Positions 6,150 to 49,381 of a DNA stretch of 60,646 bases are shown here, piece by piece (the stretch's first letter is position 1; each line of letters begins with the position of its first letter). The stretch lies in NCBI GenBank assembly GCA_030148165.1, contig JASBTZ010000015.1:1-60646 (forward strand), read 5' to 3'. This DNA is from Bacteroidota bacterium (lineage in GTDB: Bacteria > Bacteroidota > Bacteroidia > Flavobacteriales_D > Crocinitomicaceae). The position numbers were made by a program, and so were the translations under genes. Under the pieces are notes generated by a model. That model saw only the letters and a program-made list of their open reading frames with translations. It was not told the origin of the DNA and searched no databases.

Positions 6150-6819
6150 GCTTATCAGAGGTGTAGGTATAAATGACGCCGCATACTCTGTAAGTAATAC
6201 TATTTCCCTTGGTTATAGTGGAGATGGTAAGCGCCTTCAGAAAGTTGTATGGGAGTGTCCTTTTCATAAGCGGTGGAAGAATATGCTAGAACGCTGTTAT
6301 TCCCCTGATAAATATCACACTTATGTGGATTCATCGGTGTGTGAGGAATGGCTTACTTTCTCATCATTCAAGTTTTGGATGGAACAACAACCATGGGAGG
6401 GCAATCAACTAGATAAGGATATTATAGTAAAAGGGAATAAATTATACTCTCCGGATAGATGTAGATTTGTGCCTGGTTATATAAACAGCCTCTTACTTAC
6501 TAGTCAGGCTGCTCGTGGAGAGCACCTTATAGGGGTAACAAAGAGCAGTGTTTACAAGGGGTCTACGAAATATATGGCTCAGTGTAAGGTCACAGATATA
6601 TTAAGTGGCCAAGCCGGCAATAAATATTTAGGAACTTTTACCACAGAGCATGAAGCACACAGAGAGTGGCAAATAACAAAAGTCAGGGATATCCAAGATA
6701 AGTTGAATATCTATAGTAAATCTAACTGTTTCGATACGAGAGTTGCAGACGGGCTAGTGAGTAGAATTTGGCAAATCAACTCAGATATTTTGAACAGTAA
6801 ACCTACAGAAAGACTATGA
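6142..6819 (+). CDS. HNH/AP2-type homing endonuclease
   Basis: 226 aa from TTG 6142, with AAGGA 7 bases upstream; the upstream extension would overlap the membrane gene. Shows the WKNMLERCYSP...VCEEW...LDKDI...KLYSPDRCRFVP pattern of phage HNH-type homing enzymes. A C-terminal AP2-like part follows (GVTKSS, YMAQCKV, YLGTFTTEHEAH). The same architecture recurs at 14235 and 46046. It sits between a truncated and an intact copy of a small membrane-protein gene, suggesting invasion of that locus. Confidence 0.78.
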   Translation: MTRLIRGVGINDAAYSVSNTISLGYSGDGKRLQKVVWECPFHKRWKNMLERCYSPDKYHTYVDSSVCEEWLTFSSFKFWMEQQPWEGNQLDKDIIVKGNKLYSPDRCRFVPGYINSLLLTSQAARGEHLIGVTKSSVYKGSTKYMAQCKVTDILSGQAGNKYLGTFTTEHEAHREWQITKVRDIQDKLNIYSKSNCFDTRVADGLVSRIWQINSDILNSKPTERL

Positions 6820-7312: not shown

Positions 7313-7927
7313 ATGGCAACACTAGAAAACGCTGTATTCGCTTACGTAAAACTTCAACAAGCTGACTTCAAATACGGTAGCACCACTGAGAAAGAGTATG
7401 CTGTTGATTGTATTGTGGAGAAAGCTGTAGCTAAAGCATGGAACAAAGAGTTCCCTAAACAGAAGGCTAAGGAAGTAGATCGTGGTGACTTTGAACGAAT
7501 CTACAAGGTTGCTCCTCCTTTTGATGGTGATGAGCTTTATGTAATCAAGCTGAAGAAGCCTGCACAGTACAAAGATGGCAACCCAATCCCTGATGCAATG
7601 CGCCCACGAGCTTTTGTTAAGGGTGGTAATGGTAAGCTTCAGGATATTACCAAAGATATTCTTGTGGCTAACGGCAGTAAAGGTGTTGCGAGCTATGATG
7701 TGCGGGATAATGATTTCGGACATTTCGCTAGCCTTAAAGCTATTCGTGTAGACGACCTGATTGAGTACAAGAAGGTTGGTGGTGCGGCATCCTATGATGA
7801 GCTTGGTGAGGTTGAATCTCTTGCAGAAGACTTCTCTGATGTTCCAGAGCGTGTACAGTCAGAGGCCCAAGCTGCTGTAATGGAACAAGAGCCAGAAGAT
7901 GATCTAGATGATAGCGACCCGTTCTGA
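7313..7927 (+). CDS. Single-stranded DNA-binding protein (gp2.5-like)
   Basis: 204 aa. The protein has an OB-fold-like beta-rich body and an acidic, flexible tail that ends DDLDDSDPF. An acidic tip with terminal Phe is the hallmark of phage and bacterial SSBs that dock replication partners. Its place among the primase-helicase, polymerase and exonuclease genes fits a coat for replicating ssDNA. Strong ribosome site (AGGAG). A hairpin follows the gene. Confidence 0.78.
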   Translation: MATLENAVFAYVKLQQADFKYGSTTEKEYAVDCIVEKAVAKAWNKEFPKQKAKEVDRGDFERIYKVAPPFDGDELYVIKLKKPAQYKDGNPIPDAMRPRAFVKGGNGKLQDITKDILVANGSKGVASYDVRDNDFGHFASLKAIRVDDLIEYKKVGGAASYDELGEVESLAEDFSDVPERVQSEAQAAVMEQEPEDDLDDSDPF

Positions 7928-42239: not shown

Positions 42240-42864
42240 CTAGGTTCTCCGTAGTGGCTCGACCTTGGATTGAAACTCCATTGACTGTCCCATCTTTAAC
42301 AGATTTCCATAGGAGTTCACCTACTTCTGTTTCTGGGAAATACCAACTTTGCAACCAAGTGCCTTTTTTAATTGTTTTATCATCGAGAACAAAATCAACA
42401 GGGGCTACATAACTCTCAACAATCTTAGCCTCTTCTGTTTCAACTTTATGGAACAGATTAGCTTTCATGCAATGTTGATTGAAGTTATGACAAGCTTTCT
42501 CAACTTCTTCCACAGTGTAAGTATCACCATGTAGGTCTGTAGTAGTATCGCCACCATCTTGTGGTTCTAATACAATGAACAGAGCTAAACGCTGCTCCTC
42601 ATTAACAGACTTGGTTACTTGTTCAACTGCTTCAGCTTCTTGTTCACTGCCACCAAAATGTTTCTCAATGAGTTCGCCTAAAGATTCAGCGAAACTTTTC
42701 TTCATACCCTTTTCCTTTTTCGCTGCTGCAAGACCAGAGGCAATTGCTTGCCCCTCATCCCCAGTATCTTTTAGAACGCTATTAGCCACTGCTACAAATA
42801 TCTCTTTTTGTTTGTCTGTGAGATTCTTTGCTACTGGAGGAAGTTTACTTTTACTCCAAGGCAT
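42232..42864 (-). CDS. Prohead protease-like, ChaB + XkdF domains
   Basis: 210 aa. The N-terminal 50 residues resemble ChaB (KSKLPPVAKNLTDKQKEIFVAVANSVL). The remainder resembles XkdF-type putative serine proteases (LALFIVLEPQ, HCMKANLFHKVE, IVESYVAPVDFVLDD, GTWLQSWYFPE). Located between portal and scaffold, where the head maturation protease belongs. Confidence 0.72.
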   Translation of the reverse strand: MPWSKSKLPPVAKNLTDKQKEIFVAVANSVLKDTGDEGQAIASGLAAAKKEKGMKKSFAESLGELIEKHFGGSEQEAEAVEQVTKSVNEEQRLALFIVLEPQDGGDTTTDLHGDTYTVEEVEKACHNFNQHCMKANLFHKVETEEAKIVESYVAPVDFVLDDKTIKKGTWLQSWYFPETEVGELLWKSVKDGTVNGVSIQGRATTENLDD

Positions 42865-44351
42865 TAGTTGTTCTCCGAATTTCCGGCTGATTGATCACCA
42901 CCGCCTGTAGCACTACCTGTTCCAGATGGCATACCTTCTTGCATACCTTCACCAGCATTAGATGAGAATCCTGTCAATTGCTTACGCCCTTCATCAATAT
43001 CCATTGAAGTATCATCAAAAGGAACTGGCATGTTTGCCTGTTCAGCAATCCAGTTAATTGTACGTGGGTCTTGACTCAGCATTCCTGCCGCACCAACACG
43101 TTGAATAAACTTAGACAGAACATCAAGGTCTGGAGTCTTAAGATCACCAAAGGTGAAATGAGGAGTGACTGATGTATCCCAACCATTAAGAGCAAACAAC
43201 TGAGGAATAAGGTCATGGTTAAGTTGGTCTTGAATCTCAATCAACTTTGACTCAATAGCCATATCTGAGATACCCTGTAGAGACTCAGCAAGACTGAATG
43301 AACCACCACCTTCTTGACCCAGTACAAGCTGAGAAGCCATAAGAGAAGAAATAATCTCATTCTTATAACGACCAATAATCTTGTTTACATCGTGAGCCTT
43401 TTGACCAGTAACAGAGATAACATCAAACTTAAAGTATTGCTCACCTTGGTCATCTAGGACTTGAGGAAGAATCAAACCACTCTGTTCATTCATATGCAGG
43501 TTACGCATGATATTTTTATAATAATCATACACAGCCTTATCTTCTGGACTAGCATCCTCCGCCATATAGCGTGGTGGGATATAAAGAACTTTAAGTCCTC
43601 GCATATCACTTGACACACCCATTGCTTCAAACTCTTCCAAGGATGTCTTATATTTCCAAGCAGCCCAACAGGCTTTAAGAGGTGACTCGCCTTCAGGGTT
43701 ATCTTTCAGAGGGTTGTTGCGAAACAACATAAACTTCTTACGTCGAATGAATTCTTCACTGTTCGTATTTACTAGCGTAGCGTTACTCTTGCCTGATGGT
43801 TCAACAATGAACTGCCAAAGACCAGATAACTTACGACCTTTCTTTTCCCAATCCCAACTGGCTACAGTATCCTGTGCAATTAGAGGGAGACTTTCAACGC
43901 CAATCAAGCCATCGTCATACTTACTACCATTACCCTTTAAACGCTTGCGATACACCTTTTCAATAGGAGCAAAGCCATAACGATTGAATGTAGCAGCACG
44001 TCTGATGAATGATCCAAAACTATCTTCCATATCCCCCATGCATTGCTCAAGGAATACAGCTTTATCTTTTAGCTGGTCTTCATAGCCCTCTGGAATCTTA
44101 ATGCTCCAAGGGACACGAGCAATTGCCATTTCAACTAAGTTGAGAGCAGGAGCAATAGTGGCATCTTTAGCCATCTTCTTATAAGTATGAATTGCTCGGG
44201 GCCAACGTAGTTCTGAATTGCACTCTTCAAAGATGTTACCACCGAGAGTCCAAAGACCGTTGTAACTTGATTGCCCTAGTTTGAGCCGAGGTATAGTTGA
44301 GTCTGCGCCTTGGGAAAGTGTAGTAACACTCTCAACGGCTGTTTCAGCCAT
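42864..44351 (-). CDS. Portal protein (DUF935 / Mu gp29 type)
   Basis: 495 aa. Conserved helical segments RAIHTYKKMAKDATIAPAL, FNRYGFAPIEKVY, GLIGVESLPLIAQD, and an SLMASQLVLGQEGGGSFSLAE part near the C-terminus. Forms the dodecameric DNA entry ring. It overlaps the protease gene by one base and follows the large terminase. Confidence 0.85.
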   Translation of the reverse strand: MAETAVESVTTLSQGADSTIPRLKLGQSSYNGLWTLGGNIFEECNSELRWPRAIHTYKKMAKDATIAPALNLVEMAIARVPWSIKIPEGYEDQLKDKAVFLEQCMGDMEDSFGSFIRRAATFNRYGFAPIEKVYRKRLKGNGSKYDDGLIGVESLPLIAQDTVASWDWEKKGRKLSGLWQFIVEPSGKSNATLVNTNSEEFIRRKKFMLFRNNPLKDNPEGESPLKACWAAWKYKTSLEEFEAMGVSSDMRGLKVLYIPPRYMAEDASPEDKAVYDYYKNIMRNLHMNEQSGLILPQVLDDQGEQYFKFDVISVTGQKAHDVNKIIGRYKNEIISSLMASQLVLGQEGGGSFSLAESLQGISDMAIESKLIEIQDQLNHDLIPQLFALNGWDTSVTPHFTFGDLKTPDLDVLSKFIQRVGAAGMLSQDPRTINWIAEQANMPVPFDDTSMDIDEGRKQLTGFSSNAGEGMQEGMPSGTGSATGGGDQSAGNSENN

Positions 44352-44359
44352 ATAGCCTC

Positions 44360-46049
44360 CTATCGGGCAAATGGGTTATTAGTTGTTAGGATAGAATCGG
44401 CTGATTTTAATCCTGTGAGGAAGTTTGGTATTTGAATTCTCTGTGCTAGTGTAATGAAAGCATCTGCTGATGCGTCGACTTGATCGTCCTTCACTTTACG
44501 AGAGCCGTCAAAACCTTCAAGCTCATCAAAGAATGTATCATTCCATGGGCCTTCTAAGTAATCTACAAGACCAGCTTGAGCAGCAGCAGCGAATGGTTGG
44601 AAACGAATAACTTTAGACTTGTTAGATGGGCGCATTCTTGCGTAGAACCCCTCTCCAATCAAATCTTTAATCATCATCATTCCAGCAGCTTTTCCTGCTT
44701 GTCCAGGCTCCTGCGGTAAAATAATCTGAGTTCCATCTGGGTCTTGTTTAGCAGTTTCAATAATCTTCTGCATAACTTCACCAAACCTTGCCCTAAACCT
44801 GACGCAATCCATAATCACATAACGTTCATCTTTGGTCTTACCAATAAGAACGCCAGCAGTCCAGTCTGGATTGGGGAGGCTATCACTTGGTAAACTACCT
44901 GCTATATCCCAAGCTCTGCAATAAGAAACAATATCTAGATTGAGCAAGCTCTGTGACTGACACCAATCACGTTTAAAGTATCCACTTGCACTCTCACGAG
45001 CATACCAATTACCATCCAAAAGCCTACTGCGTTCAACGCCTTTAAGACCCATAAGTGATGCAACATACTTTGGGTTAATCTTCTGGATGATTGGGTTGTC
45101 ATATACGTTTGCACTAATATAGGTGAATGAAAGAGCGTGCTCTTCAGCAATACCATAATTAGCTGTTAATTCTTCTTTTGTATCCGCCCAGATAAAGTCT
45201 CCGTCTTGGAAAGAGAAGTATCTTACCATACCATCTTTAGTACGGTCTGGAGTACCATCTTCATGTAGGTAAGGCTCTACCCACTTACGAAGGAAATGAT
45301 CTGCTGAGGGGTTACAAGTAATTTTTAGGTGGGGCGCTACATCAGGACAAGATGGGTTACGCATACGAGACATGATGTATTGGATCATGTGTTGTGTGAA
45401 CTGCGTACCTTCGTCTGCAAGGTATAGGTTTGCTTCAGCACCTTGCCAGTTAACATCGGCTTGGTCATTCTCAAAGTGCTTTAGGTAAATCTCAGCACCT
45501 GACTTATGAAAAACAAACTTACCGTCTTTTGCTCGCCAAGTGTATTCATCAGGAGAATAAGCTTGACTGAAAATACGTTTACACTTTGAAAGTAGACCAC
45601 CGGGTCCGGTAAGCTGTGGTGTAGTACGTCGAGTCATAACTCCAATGAAGTTTGGTATGTCTGTATACTTGAGGAAGTCGATAACTCCAATTTCTGACTT
45701 ACCGCTACCTGCTGCCATATCAGTTATGAAGTTCGTTACACTTCTTCCAACCTTTCAGTTGTTGCCGGACCAACTCTTAATTCAAAAGAATTCTCTCTGT
45801 TTCGGGAATCACTTGATCCCTACTCTACTCACTTCCACATTACTGTGTGTTTTCGATGGCCTCTACGCACTGTCTTTAAACATTGGCACGGGATTGGCAT
45901 AGGTAATAACTTACCCTTAGCTTTCCCCGTTTAAGAGAGTTTTAATTGGAGGCGCAATGTTCACCACCAAATAGCGTTACATCCGACTGGCTCTGAATAT
46001 ACATTAGCTGACGTTCAGAACAGGGGCCGGGTAGTGTCTTTTTTGTCAT
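44360..46049 (-). CDS. Terminase large subunit, interrupted by a group I intron
   Basis: Two exons: 46049-45963 (29 codons, ends DVTLFGG) and 45715-44360 (starts AAGSGKSEIGVIDFL). Splicing restores a 480-aa protein with Walker A GGAAGSGKS at residues 28-36, Walker B LYLADE, and RNase H-type nuclease acids (RAWDIAGS, QVDASADAF). Without splicing, exon 1 runs into a stop after five intron codons (EHCAS N stop), and exon 2 would lack the start of the ATPase. The exon 1 ATG overlaps the stop of the HNH gene upstream. The protein packages DNA into proheads. Confidence 0.88.
45716..45962 (-). ncRNA. Group I self-splicing intron in the terminase gene
   Basis: 247 nt. The 5' exon ends in U (GGU at 45965-45963) and the intron ends in G (45716), as group I introns require. 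The P1 helix pairs exon UUGGUGGU (45970-45963) with intron GCCUCCAA (45953-45946), with a U-G at the splice site and one U-U mismatch. The core ACGGGGAA (45930-45923) with AAUCCCGUGC (45895-45886) closely matches the P4 region of the T4 td intron as I remember it, suggesting subgroup IA. It encodes no endonuclease. Confidence 0.85.
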
Positions 46050-46912
46050 TGTTTATTCCATCCGTAGTATTTTAGTTCTGCATCTTCTCTGGCTTTAACA
46101 GCATCTTCAAATTCAATGAACATACCTAGACGAATATGCTGATTCTCTACATGGATTTCAGCAGACCATTTACCTTGATTCGTATAAAAACTAACACCCG
46201 ACTTTCCAGATGTATTGTTTGGATCAAGACCTTTGTTGTACCCTTGGATGCTATTAGTTGCCCAACGGCAATTTTCTTTATAGTAGTTACCAGTAACATC
46301 AATTCTATCTAAAGATGTACCTTCTGGAGCTTCACCCATATCTCGGTAGAAGTTTTCAAAACAACCACCAACTTTAGGATTCCAGTCATCACAAACTTGA
46401 ATACCCTTACCTGCATGATAAGGGAACTGTTGAGCTAGCTCTGGTTTACAACGGCGAATCATACCTTCATGGATTTGATATGTCCGGGTATTTGAGAGGC
46501 CATGTGTCTTACGGCTCTCATCACCAACACAGCCACAACTTGTGGTATTACCAGAGATAAGATTATTCTTGCGTACAAGTGTTAGTTCGGAGTTTCCGCA
46601 ATCGCATTCACACCAGACTTGACCAATAGCACCATAGGAGTAATCAAGCTTTGGGCCTTCGCTGATAATAGTTAGCAGGCCATATTTATTTCCGGGAAGA
46701 TAATGAGTGCAGCGAAGACCACAACCGCAATTCAATTTCTTCTTACCAGTAACTTGTTTGTGTTCAAGTATGCAGGTATCACCACAAACACAAGAAGCTT
46801 TCCACTTAGCTGTAAGTGCTGTATCGGACTCTTGGGGTTCAAACCTTTCAGTGATTGTCAAATATCCAATCTTTGTACCACAATAATCTTTTAATTTGTA
46901 TTTACGTGCCAT
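46046..46912 (-). CDS. HNH/AP2-type homing endonuclease upstream of the terminase
   Basis: 288 aa. Cys-rich N-terminus (CVCGDTC, CGCGLRC, CECDCGN), then the HNH-type block GMIRRCKPE...GIQVCDDW...SLDRIDVTGNYYKENCRWAT and an AP2-like end (SGKSGVSFYTNQGKWSAEI). The stop overlaps the terminase start (ATGA). It has its own leftward promoter and a leader hairpin. The likely target is the terminase gene; with the adjacent ORF-less intron it suggests collaborative homing (inference). Confidence 0.82.
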   Translation of the reverse strand: MARKYKLKDYCGTKIGYLTITERFEPQESDTALTAKWKASCVCGDTCILEHKQVTGKKKLNCGCGLRCTHYLPGNKYGLLTIISEGPKLDYSYGAIGQVWCECDCGNSELTLVRKNNLISGNTTSCGCVGDESRKTHGLSNTRTYQIHEGMIRRCKPELAQQFPYHAGKGIQVCDDWNPKVGGCFENFYRDMGEAPEGTSLDRIDVTGNYYKENCRWATNSIQGYNKGLDPNNTSGKSGVSFYTNQGKWSAEIHVENQHIRLGMFIEFEDAVKAREDAELKYYGWNKQ

Positions 46913-48571: not shown

Positions 48572-48654
48572 TGGTGCCGGGGGTGTGATTTGAACACACG
48601 ATCTGAGATTCCAACTTACAAGATTGGTGCAATGGGCCACTATGCGACCCCGGC
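48572..48654 (-). tRNA. tRNA-Thr (anticodon TGT) with encoded CCA
   Basis: Cloverleaf: acceptor GCCGGGG / CCCCGGC with A73 and encoded CCA. D arm GCA/TGC. Anticodon stem CCAAT/GTTGG around CTTGTAA (T33, anticodon TGT). T arm GTGTG-TTCAAAT-CACAC. The variable region is 11 nt and can form a short stem, unusual for Thr and more like class II tRNAs, so identity is not fully certain. Confidence 0.72.
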
Positions 48655-49309: not shown

Positions 49310-49381
49310 GTGTTGCAATAGGATTCGAACCTATATCTCCACCTTTAGAGTGAGTCCCTATCCAATTGGGAGCATACAACC
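49310..49381 (-). tRNA. Degenerate tRNA or tRNA-like element in the late leader
   Basis: Good T arm (ATAGG-TTCGAAT-CCTAT), acceptor GTTGTA/TGCAAC of 6 bp plus a mismatch, and a D arm with a GG-containing loop (AATTGGATA). The anticodon arm CTCAC/GTGGAG needs a bulge and its loop has C at position 33, so no amino acid can be assigned. No CCA is encoded. Could be a decayed tRNA or a tRNA mimic used for RNA processing. Confidence 0.5.

Follow-up and report, generated by a model that had tools for sequence, protein, structure and literature searches.

The large terminase gene (terL) on a contig from a Bacteroidota bacterium (JASBTZ010000015.1, assembly GCA_030148165.1; the whole 60,646 nucleotides (nt) analysed are here called the window) is interrupted, within its Walker A (P-loop) codons, by an insert of 247 nt that carries no open reading frame (ORF). 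It is highly probable that this insert is an ORF-less group I intron, probably self-splicing; this confidence covers the intron and its splicing, and not its homing. The same intron lineage appears to hold the P-loop site in many uncultivated phages, and the comparison of introns with their terminases indicates that it has moved between very different terL genes.

Anatomy and group I structure of the terL insert

The split gene lies on the minus strand, and the features of the locus are as follows (given as window coordinates).

46049..45963, minus strand: terL exon 1, 29 codons, ends VTLFGG; MTKKTLPGPCSERQLMYIQSQSDVTLFGG
45962..45716, minus strand: ORF-less group I intron (predicted), 247 nt, U precedes the 5' splice site, terminal G
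45715..44360, minus strand: terL exon 2, begins AAGSGKSEIG; ATPase and nuclease domains
45963..45970, minus strand: 5' exon side of helix P1, TTGGTGGT, pairs with the guide
45946..45953, minus strand: internal guide sequence, GCCTCCAA, pairs with exon bases -1 to -8, U-U mismatch at -4
45746..45972, minus strand: span matched by RF00028, 35.6 bits, E-value 1.7e-7, gathering score of 50 not reached
46046..46912, minus strand: HNH/AP2 endonuclease-like gene, 288 amino acids; phrog_374
42864..44351, minus strand: portal protein gene, downstream of terL; Pfam Portal_Mu (1.1e-23), phrog_113 (1.3e-73)

Exon 1 ends in ...TTTGGTGGT, with U at the splice site, the intron runs from GAACATTGCG to CTGATATG, its last base being G, and exon 2 opens with GCAGCAGGTAGCGGTAAG, which encodes AAGSGKS. 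Exon 2 matches Pfam Terminase_6N (2.7e-14) and Terminase_6C (3.3e-19) as well as phrog_979 (6.2e-165), and the closest named phages share at most 52.3% TerL identity. An earlier, sequence-only reading had placed an ORF-less group I intron exactly in these codons and had noted that removing 247 nt restores GGAAGSGKS. The restored motif is that of uninterrupted homologues: relatives without the insert (e.g. LFGGAAGSGKS in loci L009 and L015) are continuous across the insertion point, so the join GG/AAGSGKS (the slash marks the insertion point here and below) is the expected one. Intron placement is further supported by the match to the Rfam group I model RF00028, by covariation within the intron and by covariation of the guide with the exons, as described below. 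Translation continuing from exon 1 would meet an in-frame stop at intron nt 19, and in the 24 loci whose intron occupies these codons the earliest stop of this kind starts at intron nt 4–43. Only one TerL match, that of the window itself, was found in the source assembly at E ≤ 0.001. The dependence of packaging on splicing, also proposed in the earlier reading, follows from this anatomy to the extent that the predicted splicing takes place.

The structure was computed on an alignment of these 24 loci (the window and 23 IMG/VR contigs), of which 21 are distinct in sequence, with helix names assigned within the present analysis. Over 44 pairs in P1, P3–P7, P7.2, P9 and P9.1, including the P3/P7 pseudoknot core and leaving P8 and P7.1 out of the counts, 98.8% of 918 cells are paired, versus 82.8% in shuffled alignments and 32–48% in slid versions. 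Both sides have changed in 25 pairs and 138 cells (slid versions give 4–7 such pairs), and none of 500 shuffles equalled the observed paired fraction, two-sided pairs or two-sided cells; the number of further pair types was matched by 9 of the 500. The covariation score is 0.506, against 0.200 in shuffles. All cells are paired in P3, with two-sided change in 4 of 6 pairs, and likewise in P7, with two-sided change in 1 of 5. Subgroup IA is recognised by an extra P7.1/P7.2, and a P7.2 stem is present here, showing two-sided change in 5 of its 6 pairs.

The 5' exon ending in U and the intron ending in G were read directly in the window, as had been claimed, and a U before the 5' splice site pairing with a guide G, together with an intron-terminal G, occurs in all 21 distinct sequences. 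The extraction script and search pattern required these bases, a requirement by which none of the 24 loci was lost; the window and five other loci were initially cut without requiring the G. The P1 helix drawn in the earlier reading is present, with one U-U mismatch at -4. Because P1 of L036 and L038 is misaligned in the alignment, P1 was also counted by position: all 21 introns pair at each of the exon positions -1 to -3 and -5 to -7, and all have U-U at -4. Pairing is found at -8 in 19 of 21 (shuffled mean 13.0, p 0.0008), at -7 in 21 of 21 (shuffled mean 17.4, p 0.004) and, in P10, at +3 in 16 of 21 (shuffled mean 11.2, p 0.014); +1 and +2 of P10 are near-invariant and hence uninformative. 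The P1 guides covary with their exons, and the P10 guides do so more weakly. Part of the guide was fixed by the pattern scan, and its invariance is therefore partly a matter of selection; loci from the other scans came with no guide condition.

Several results weigh against a group I intron with matched guides. An Rfam search, named as a check in the sequence-only reading, did return RF00028 (E 1.7e-7 in a search of 521 bases), but at 35.6 bits the window intron stays below the gathering score of 50, and at the gathering threshold the whole window yields tRNAs only and no intron. Energy folding of the window sequence by itself was no better than that of shuffles (z -0.71; 45 of 200 shuffles equal or better). 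P1 position -8 is unpaired in 2 of 21 introns and P10 +3 in 5 of 21, and P10 +4 does not exceed chance (p 0.21, 21 introns). The gathering score is a library threshold rather than a biological criterion, and it is not decisive here, since at that threshold no intron is reported in the stretch from Vibrio phage ICP1 (L175), whose terL intron has been verified by reverse-transcription polymerase chain reaction (RT-PCR), while relatives of the window intron at the same site pass it (71.5 bits in L019, 67.0 bits in L014). Nor is an intron reported at the gathering threshold in either of two Rheinheimera phage stretches (Barba1A and Barba19A). The case for a group I intron rests on comparison. After transcription, the guide would pair with the end of exon 1 to form P1, the group I core would cut after the U, and P10 would help to position the 3' exon, so that an unbroken packaging ATPase results.

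Occurrence and horizontal spread of the intron

The earlier reading was silent on the minus strand, the endonuclease-like neighbour, the published precedent in ICP1 and the presence of the intron in other, divergent terminases. Recurrence was assessed with scans of different kinds. Scans with TerL protein, which are independent of intron presence, gave 39 distinct contigs with a readable P-loop, 22 of them interrupted: 17 have an intron at the window site and 5 have one two codons on (GGAA/GS), and the other 17 P-loops are uninterrupted. Eight loci (L036–L043) were read of the 80 kept from a scan with the HNH protein. These added two introns at the window site (L036, L038), two at GGAA/GS (L039, L040) and one interruption at GGAMG/SGKS (L041), as well as two uninterrupted loci (L042, L043); L037 is the contig of L010. 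A pattern scan returned 18 matches, 16 at the terL site of the window and two by chance (L033 and L034, dropped as lying inside an unrelated reading frame), and all 13 matches of the exact type A core pattern in viral contigs fall at that terL site. When genome contigs were scanned with TerL, 16 stretches matched a pattern and none was confirmed. Three loci (L018, L132, L161) were left out of intron scoring, the match lying outside the P-loop or reaching only 29% identity.

Among cultured phages, reading of frames and motifs places an insertion at the codons of the window in Barba1A, one codon on in ICP1 and Vibrio phage 1.161.O, and two codons on in Barba19A and Vibrio phage 1.063.O. Intron-like insertions in the P-loops read occur at four consecutive codon boundaries (GG/, GGA/, GGAA/ and GGAMG/). 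Together with one intein-like insert and varied upstream endonuclease-like genes, these boundaries mark the TerL P-loop as a hot spot in the loci read.

Further inserts were encountered in or near these genes. The intein-like insert is in L023 (IMGVR_UViG_3300037337_000032, minus strand, near 6309–6336 and downstream), where the P-loop also carries an intron (GG/AAGSGK); it stands six codons past the intron, directly after GK, ends VTHN/S and matches LAGLIDADG_3 (1.2e-8). A second terL group I intron lies near the nuclease motif (KDD/QVDA) in L013 (6178–6441), L014 (6200–6445) and L015 (6178–6420), with RF00028 scores of 65.7–81 bits; L014 has introns at both positions. The L014 TerL belongs to the family of the window, but its part after the second intron resembles L019, and it may be a mosaic with the switch at the intron. 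In L041 a second RF00028 match (7522–7738, 76.4 bits) follows the P-loop intron. The annotation of Vibrio phage vB_VpaM_R16F (L172) divides terL into five pieces, which suggests that the gene has several introns, and in Acinetobacter phage ME3 (L133, 3001–3128) a relative of the window intron (77.7% identity over 51% of the query) has an annotated DNA polymerase piece on either side.

Intron and terminase similarities are at odds in several pairs of loci. The introns of L011 and L024 are 98.3% identical and their TerL proteins 48.6%; the corresponding values are 96.9% and 47.8% for L010 and L019, and 95.4% and 33.9% for L002 and L036. The relation is reversed in L019 and L024 (TerL 77.3%, intron 61.2%). 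As introns 95–98% identical occupy terminases only 34–49% identical, vertical descent alone is insufficient, and the computed similarities indicate that the intron lineage has spread horizontally between very different terL genes. In the first three pairs, ungapped exon identity past the first 12 nt is 33–53% (20–67% over all ten pairs compared), while within the first 12 exon bases the ten pairs are 58–92% alike on the 5' side and 33–83% on the 3' side. The guide holds 40 of the 135 differences between near-identical introns in 181 of 2377 positions, a count from ten chosen, non-independent pairs that includes alignment gaps at the intron start. The guide bases that touch the exon would change to match each new terL. 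A comparison of six sister pairs with and without an intron for clustered exon changes gave no clear pattern and was not used. Because near-identical introns occur in terL genes only 34–49% identical, the family offers natural material for the study of how group I introns without an ORF change place.

The upstream endonuclease-like gene and possible routes of movement

The ORF-less intron adjoins a free-standing endonuclease-like gene, the layout of collaborative homing, and the stop codon of that gene (TGA) overlaps the terL start as ATGA (46049–46046). This neighbour of exon 1 resembles a free-standing homing endonuclease of the HNH type, and its activity and target are inferred. It is endonuclease-like by PHROGs only (phrog_374 HNH endonuclease, 5.8e-63). 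Its AP2-like end was found by a PDB sequence profile (E 0.0075) and by Foldseek (probability 0.99 but E 0.18); in a structure model with a mean predicted local distance difference test score (pLDDT) of 70.9 and a predicted template modelling score (pTM) of 0.41, only this end resembles PDB entries, and the model did not display the nuclease fold. The close relatives of the HNH protein (71–76% identity) all stand directly before an interrupted P-loop (4 of 4; three at the window site, one two codons on).

The slot upstream was surveyed in 49 loci in which a reading frame of 60 codons or more ends shortly before the end of exon 1. In 29 of these the frame belongs to a cluster whose scanned representative has an endonuclease-type family match; two more (L125, L150) are endonuclease-like by eye, a class of eight has no clear match in the libraries, and in ten none was recognised. 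The P-loop is interrupted in 10 of 12 loci of the class found in the window (phrog_374 HNH with an AP2-like end), 5 of 6 of an HNH_3 class (AP2 match below cut-off) and 6 of 8 of the class without a library match, versus 1 of 6 T5orf172-like and 0 of 3 NUMOD3-type loci. Restricted to loci found through TerL protein alone, the HNH/AP2 classes are interrupted in 9 of 10 and the T5orf172/NUMOD3-type (L125 included) in 1 of 10 (Fisher p 0.001), counts made by hand on loci that are not independent and inflated by near-identical ones. The glycine codons at the site read GGTGGT in 24 of 24 intron-bearing loci and in 4 of the 19 that are uninterrupted. Since the U:G pair requires the last T, which the search pattern also contained, position -4 is the freer comparison, and there T is found in 24 of 24 vs 11 of 19. 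P-loop DNA is the likely target of the upstream endonuclease-like neighbours, and their owner's own site would be shielded by the intron or by recoding of the glycine codons. The glycine-codon pattern agrees with recoding as another means of protection: codons other than GGTGGT are found in L042 and L043, which have the HNH neighbour and no intron, though not in L139.

Collaborative homing, in which the adjacent HNH protein would cut an intron-less terL P-loop and carry itself and the intron across by double-strand-break repair, has in our estimate somewhat less than an even chance of being the route. It accounts for the position of the HNH gene directly beside exon 1 and for the association of its class with interrupted P-loops, and it has likewise been proposed for ICP1 in the report on that phage (PMC10448857). 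For the HNH protein of the window it is only partly supported, and a number of observations count against homing. That protein has no Pfam or NCBIfam match, and its model has no PDB match at E ≤ 0.001. The intron and the HNH gene seem not to be passed on together: unrelated genes stand next to the near-identical introns of L011/L024 and of L010/L019, no upstream endonuclease was recognised beside the intron in six loci (L002, L006, L023, L163, L165, L167), and an HNH neighbour occurs without an intron in L042, L043 and L139, the last retaining exact GGTGGT. Break-repair homing is, moreover, often accompanied by co-conversion of flanking exons (PMC2988022, PMC3984707), and flanks compared across families bear no sign of it beyond about 12 nt.

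Reverse splicing, or exchange between resident introns, would fit the sharp exon edges better than break-repair homing. Exchange by recombination inside the intron, which swaps cores and leaves the exons untouched, is a tentative possibility; conserved 5' and core segments are common to the two intron types found at that site. A mosaic intron did not come to light, although no dedicated breakpoint test was made, and some TerL relatives have no intron at all. Reverse splicing between unrelated terL mRNAs, steered by the guide only and followed by reverse transcription and recombination, seems unlikely. It would account for introns 95–98% identical between exons of 33–53% identity past 12 nt (L011–L024, L010–L019, L002–L036), for flank similarity mostly confined to guide-contacted bases and for the concentration of intron differences in the guide. 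Conversion between introns already at the site would equally give sharp edges, and a 2014 review describes the reverse-splicing route as lacking direct experimental evidence (PMC3984707).

The last intron codon of the window is ATG, and for this reason the ORF lister starts terL there (45718) and omits exon 1, a matter for annotation. A conserved alternative start at the intron end was considered and rejected, as ATG occurs there in only 2 of 24 loci. That there is no intron but a broken gene or a ribosomal hop, translation of exon 2 starting at this ATG, is highly improbable: exon 2 can indeed start there, but the codon is so rarely ATG, and both exons are kept around a covarying group I structure in 24 loci. 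Apart from these elements, a tRNA-Thr gene (TGT) lies close to the packaging genes (48572–48654, minus strand), and a second, weak tRNA match, from Rfam only, is at 49310–49381.

Comparison with known systems

The closest known system is Vibrio phage ICP1, where, according to the report describing it (PMC10448857), a short exon 1 is followed by an intron in the terL Walker A codons, a free-standing endonuclease lies directly upstream, and splicing was demonstrated by RNA-seq, RT-PCR and Sanger sequencing. Judged by its frame and motif, the ICP1 join (YGGA/AGGGKS) lies one codon downstream of GG/AAGSGKS in the window. The ICP1 neighbour is a T5orf172 protein, whereas that of the window is HNH/AP2, and the two introns are likened by anatomy and not base by base. 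Rheinheimera phages Barba1A and Barba19A also have intron-like insertions in the terL P-loop, the former at the codons of the window (VIGG/AAGSGKS), and that of Barba19A matches the L019 intron (E 1e-30). Neither is annotated as an intron. These are two Rheinheimera records read of 112 matching at E up to 10 (Barba1A at E 3), and no literature linking Barba phages with introns was found. Apart from the ICP1 and Bacillus papers, none of the titles and abstract openings listed in literature searches that covered few subscription journals describes introns at the terL P-loop in several terminase families.

Group I introns also occur in the terL of Bacillus phages such as SIOphi, where splicing takes place during infection and, in the case of SIOphi, in vitro as well (PMC11878797); the mean intron length given for that set is 802 bases, against 247 nt in the window. 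Mycobacteriophage TerL inteins (PMC5050341) are likewise mobile splicing elements that cluster in the ATPase domain of TerL, but act at the protein level; an intein-like insert with a LAGLIDADG domain was also met in L023, six codons from its intron. An ORF-less intron beside a free-standing endonuclease is also described, in other host genes, for cyanophage psbA (F-CphI) and for T3/T7-like collaborative homing (per the ICP1 report, PMC10448857), and in these systems the target of the endonuclease corresponds to the point at which the intron is inserted (as the 2014 review states, PMC3984707). The arrangement of intron, endonuclease and Walker A site is already known from ICP1; what the present comparison adds is the spread of a single intron lineage over very different terminases, its guides largely matched to each and its edges sharp.
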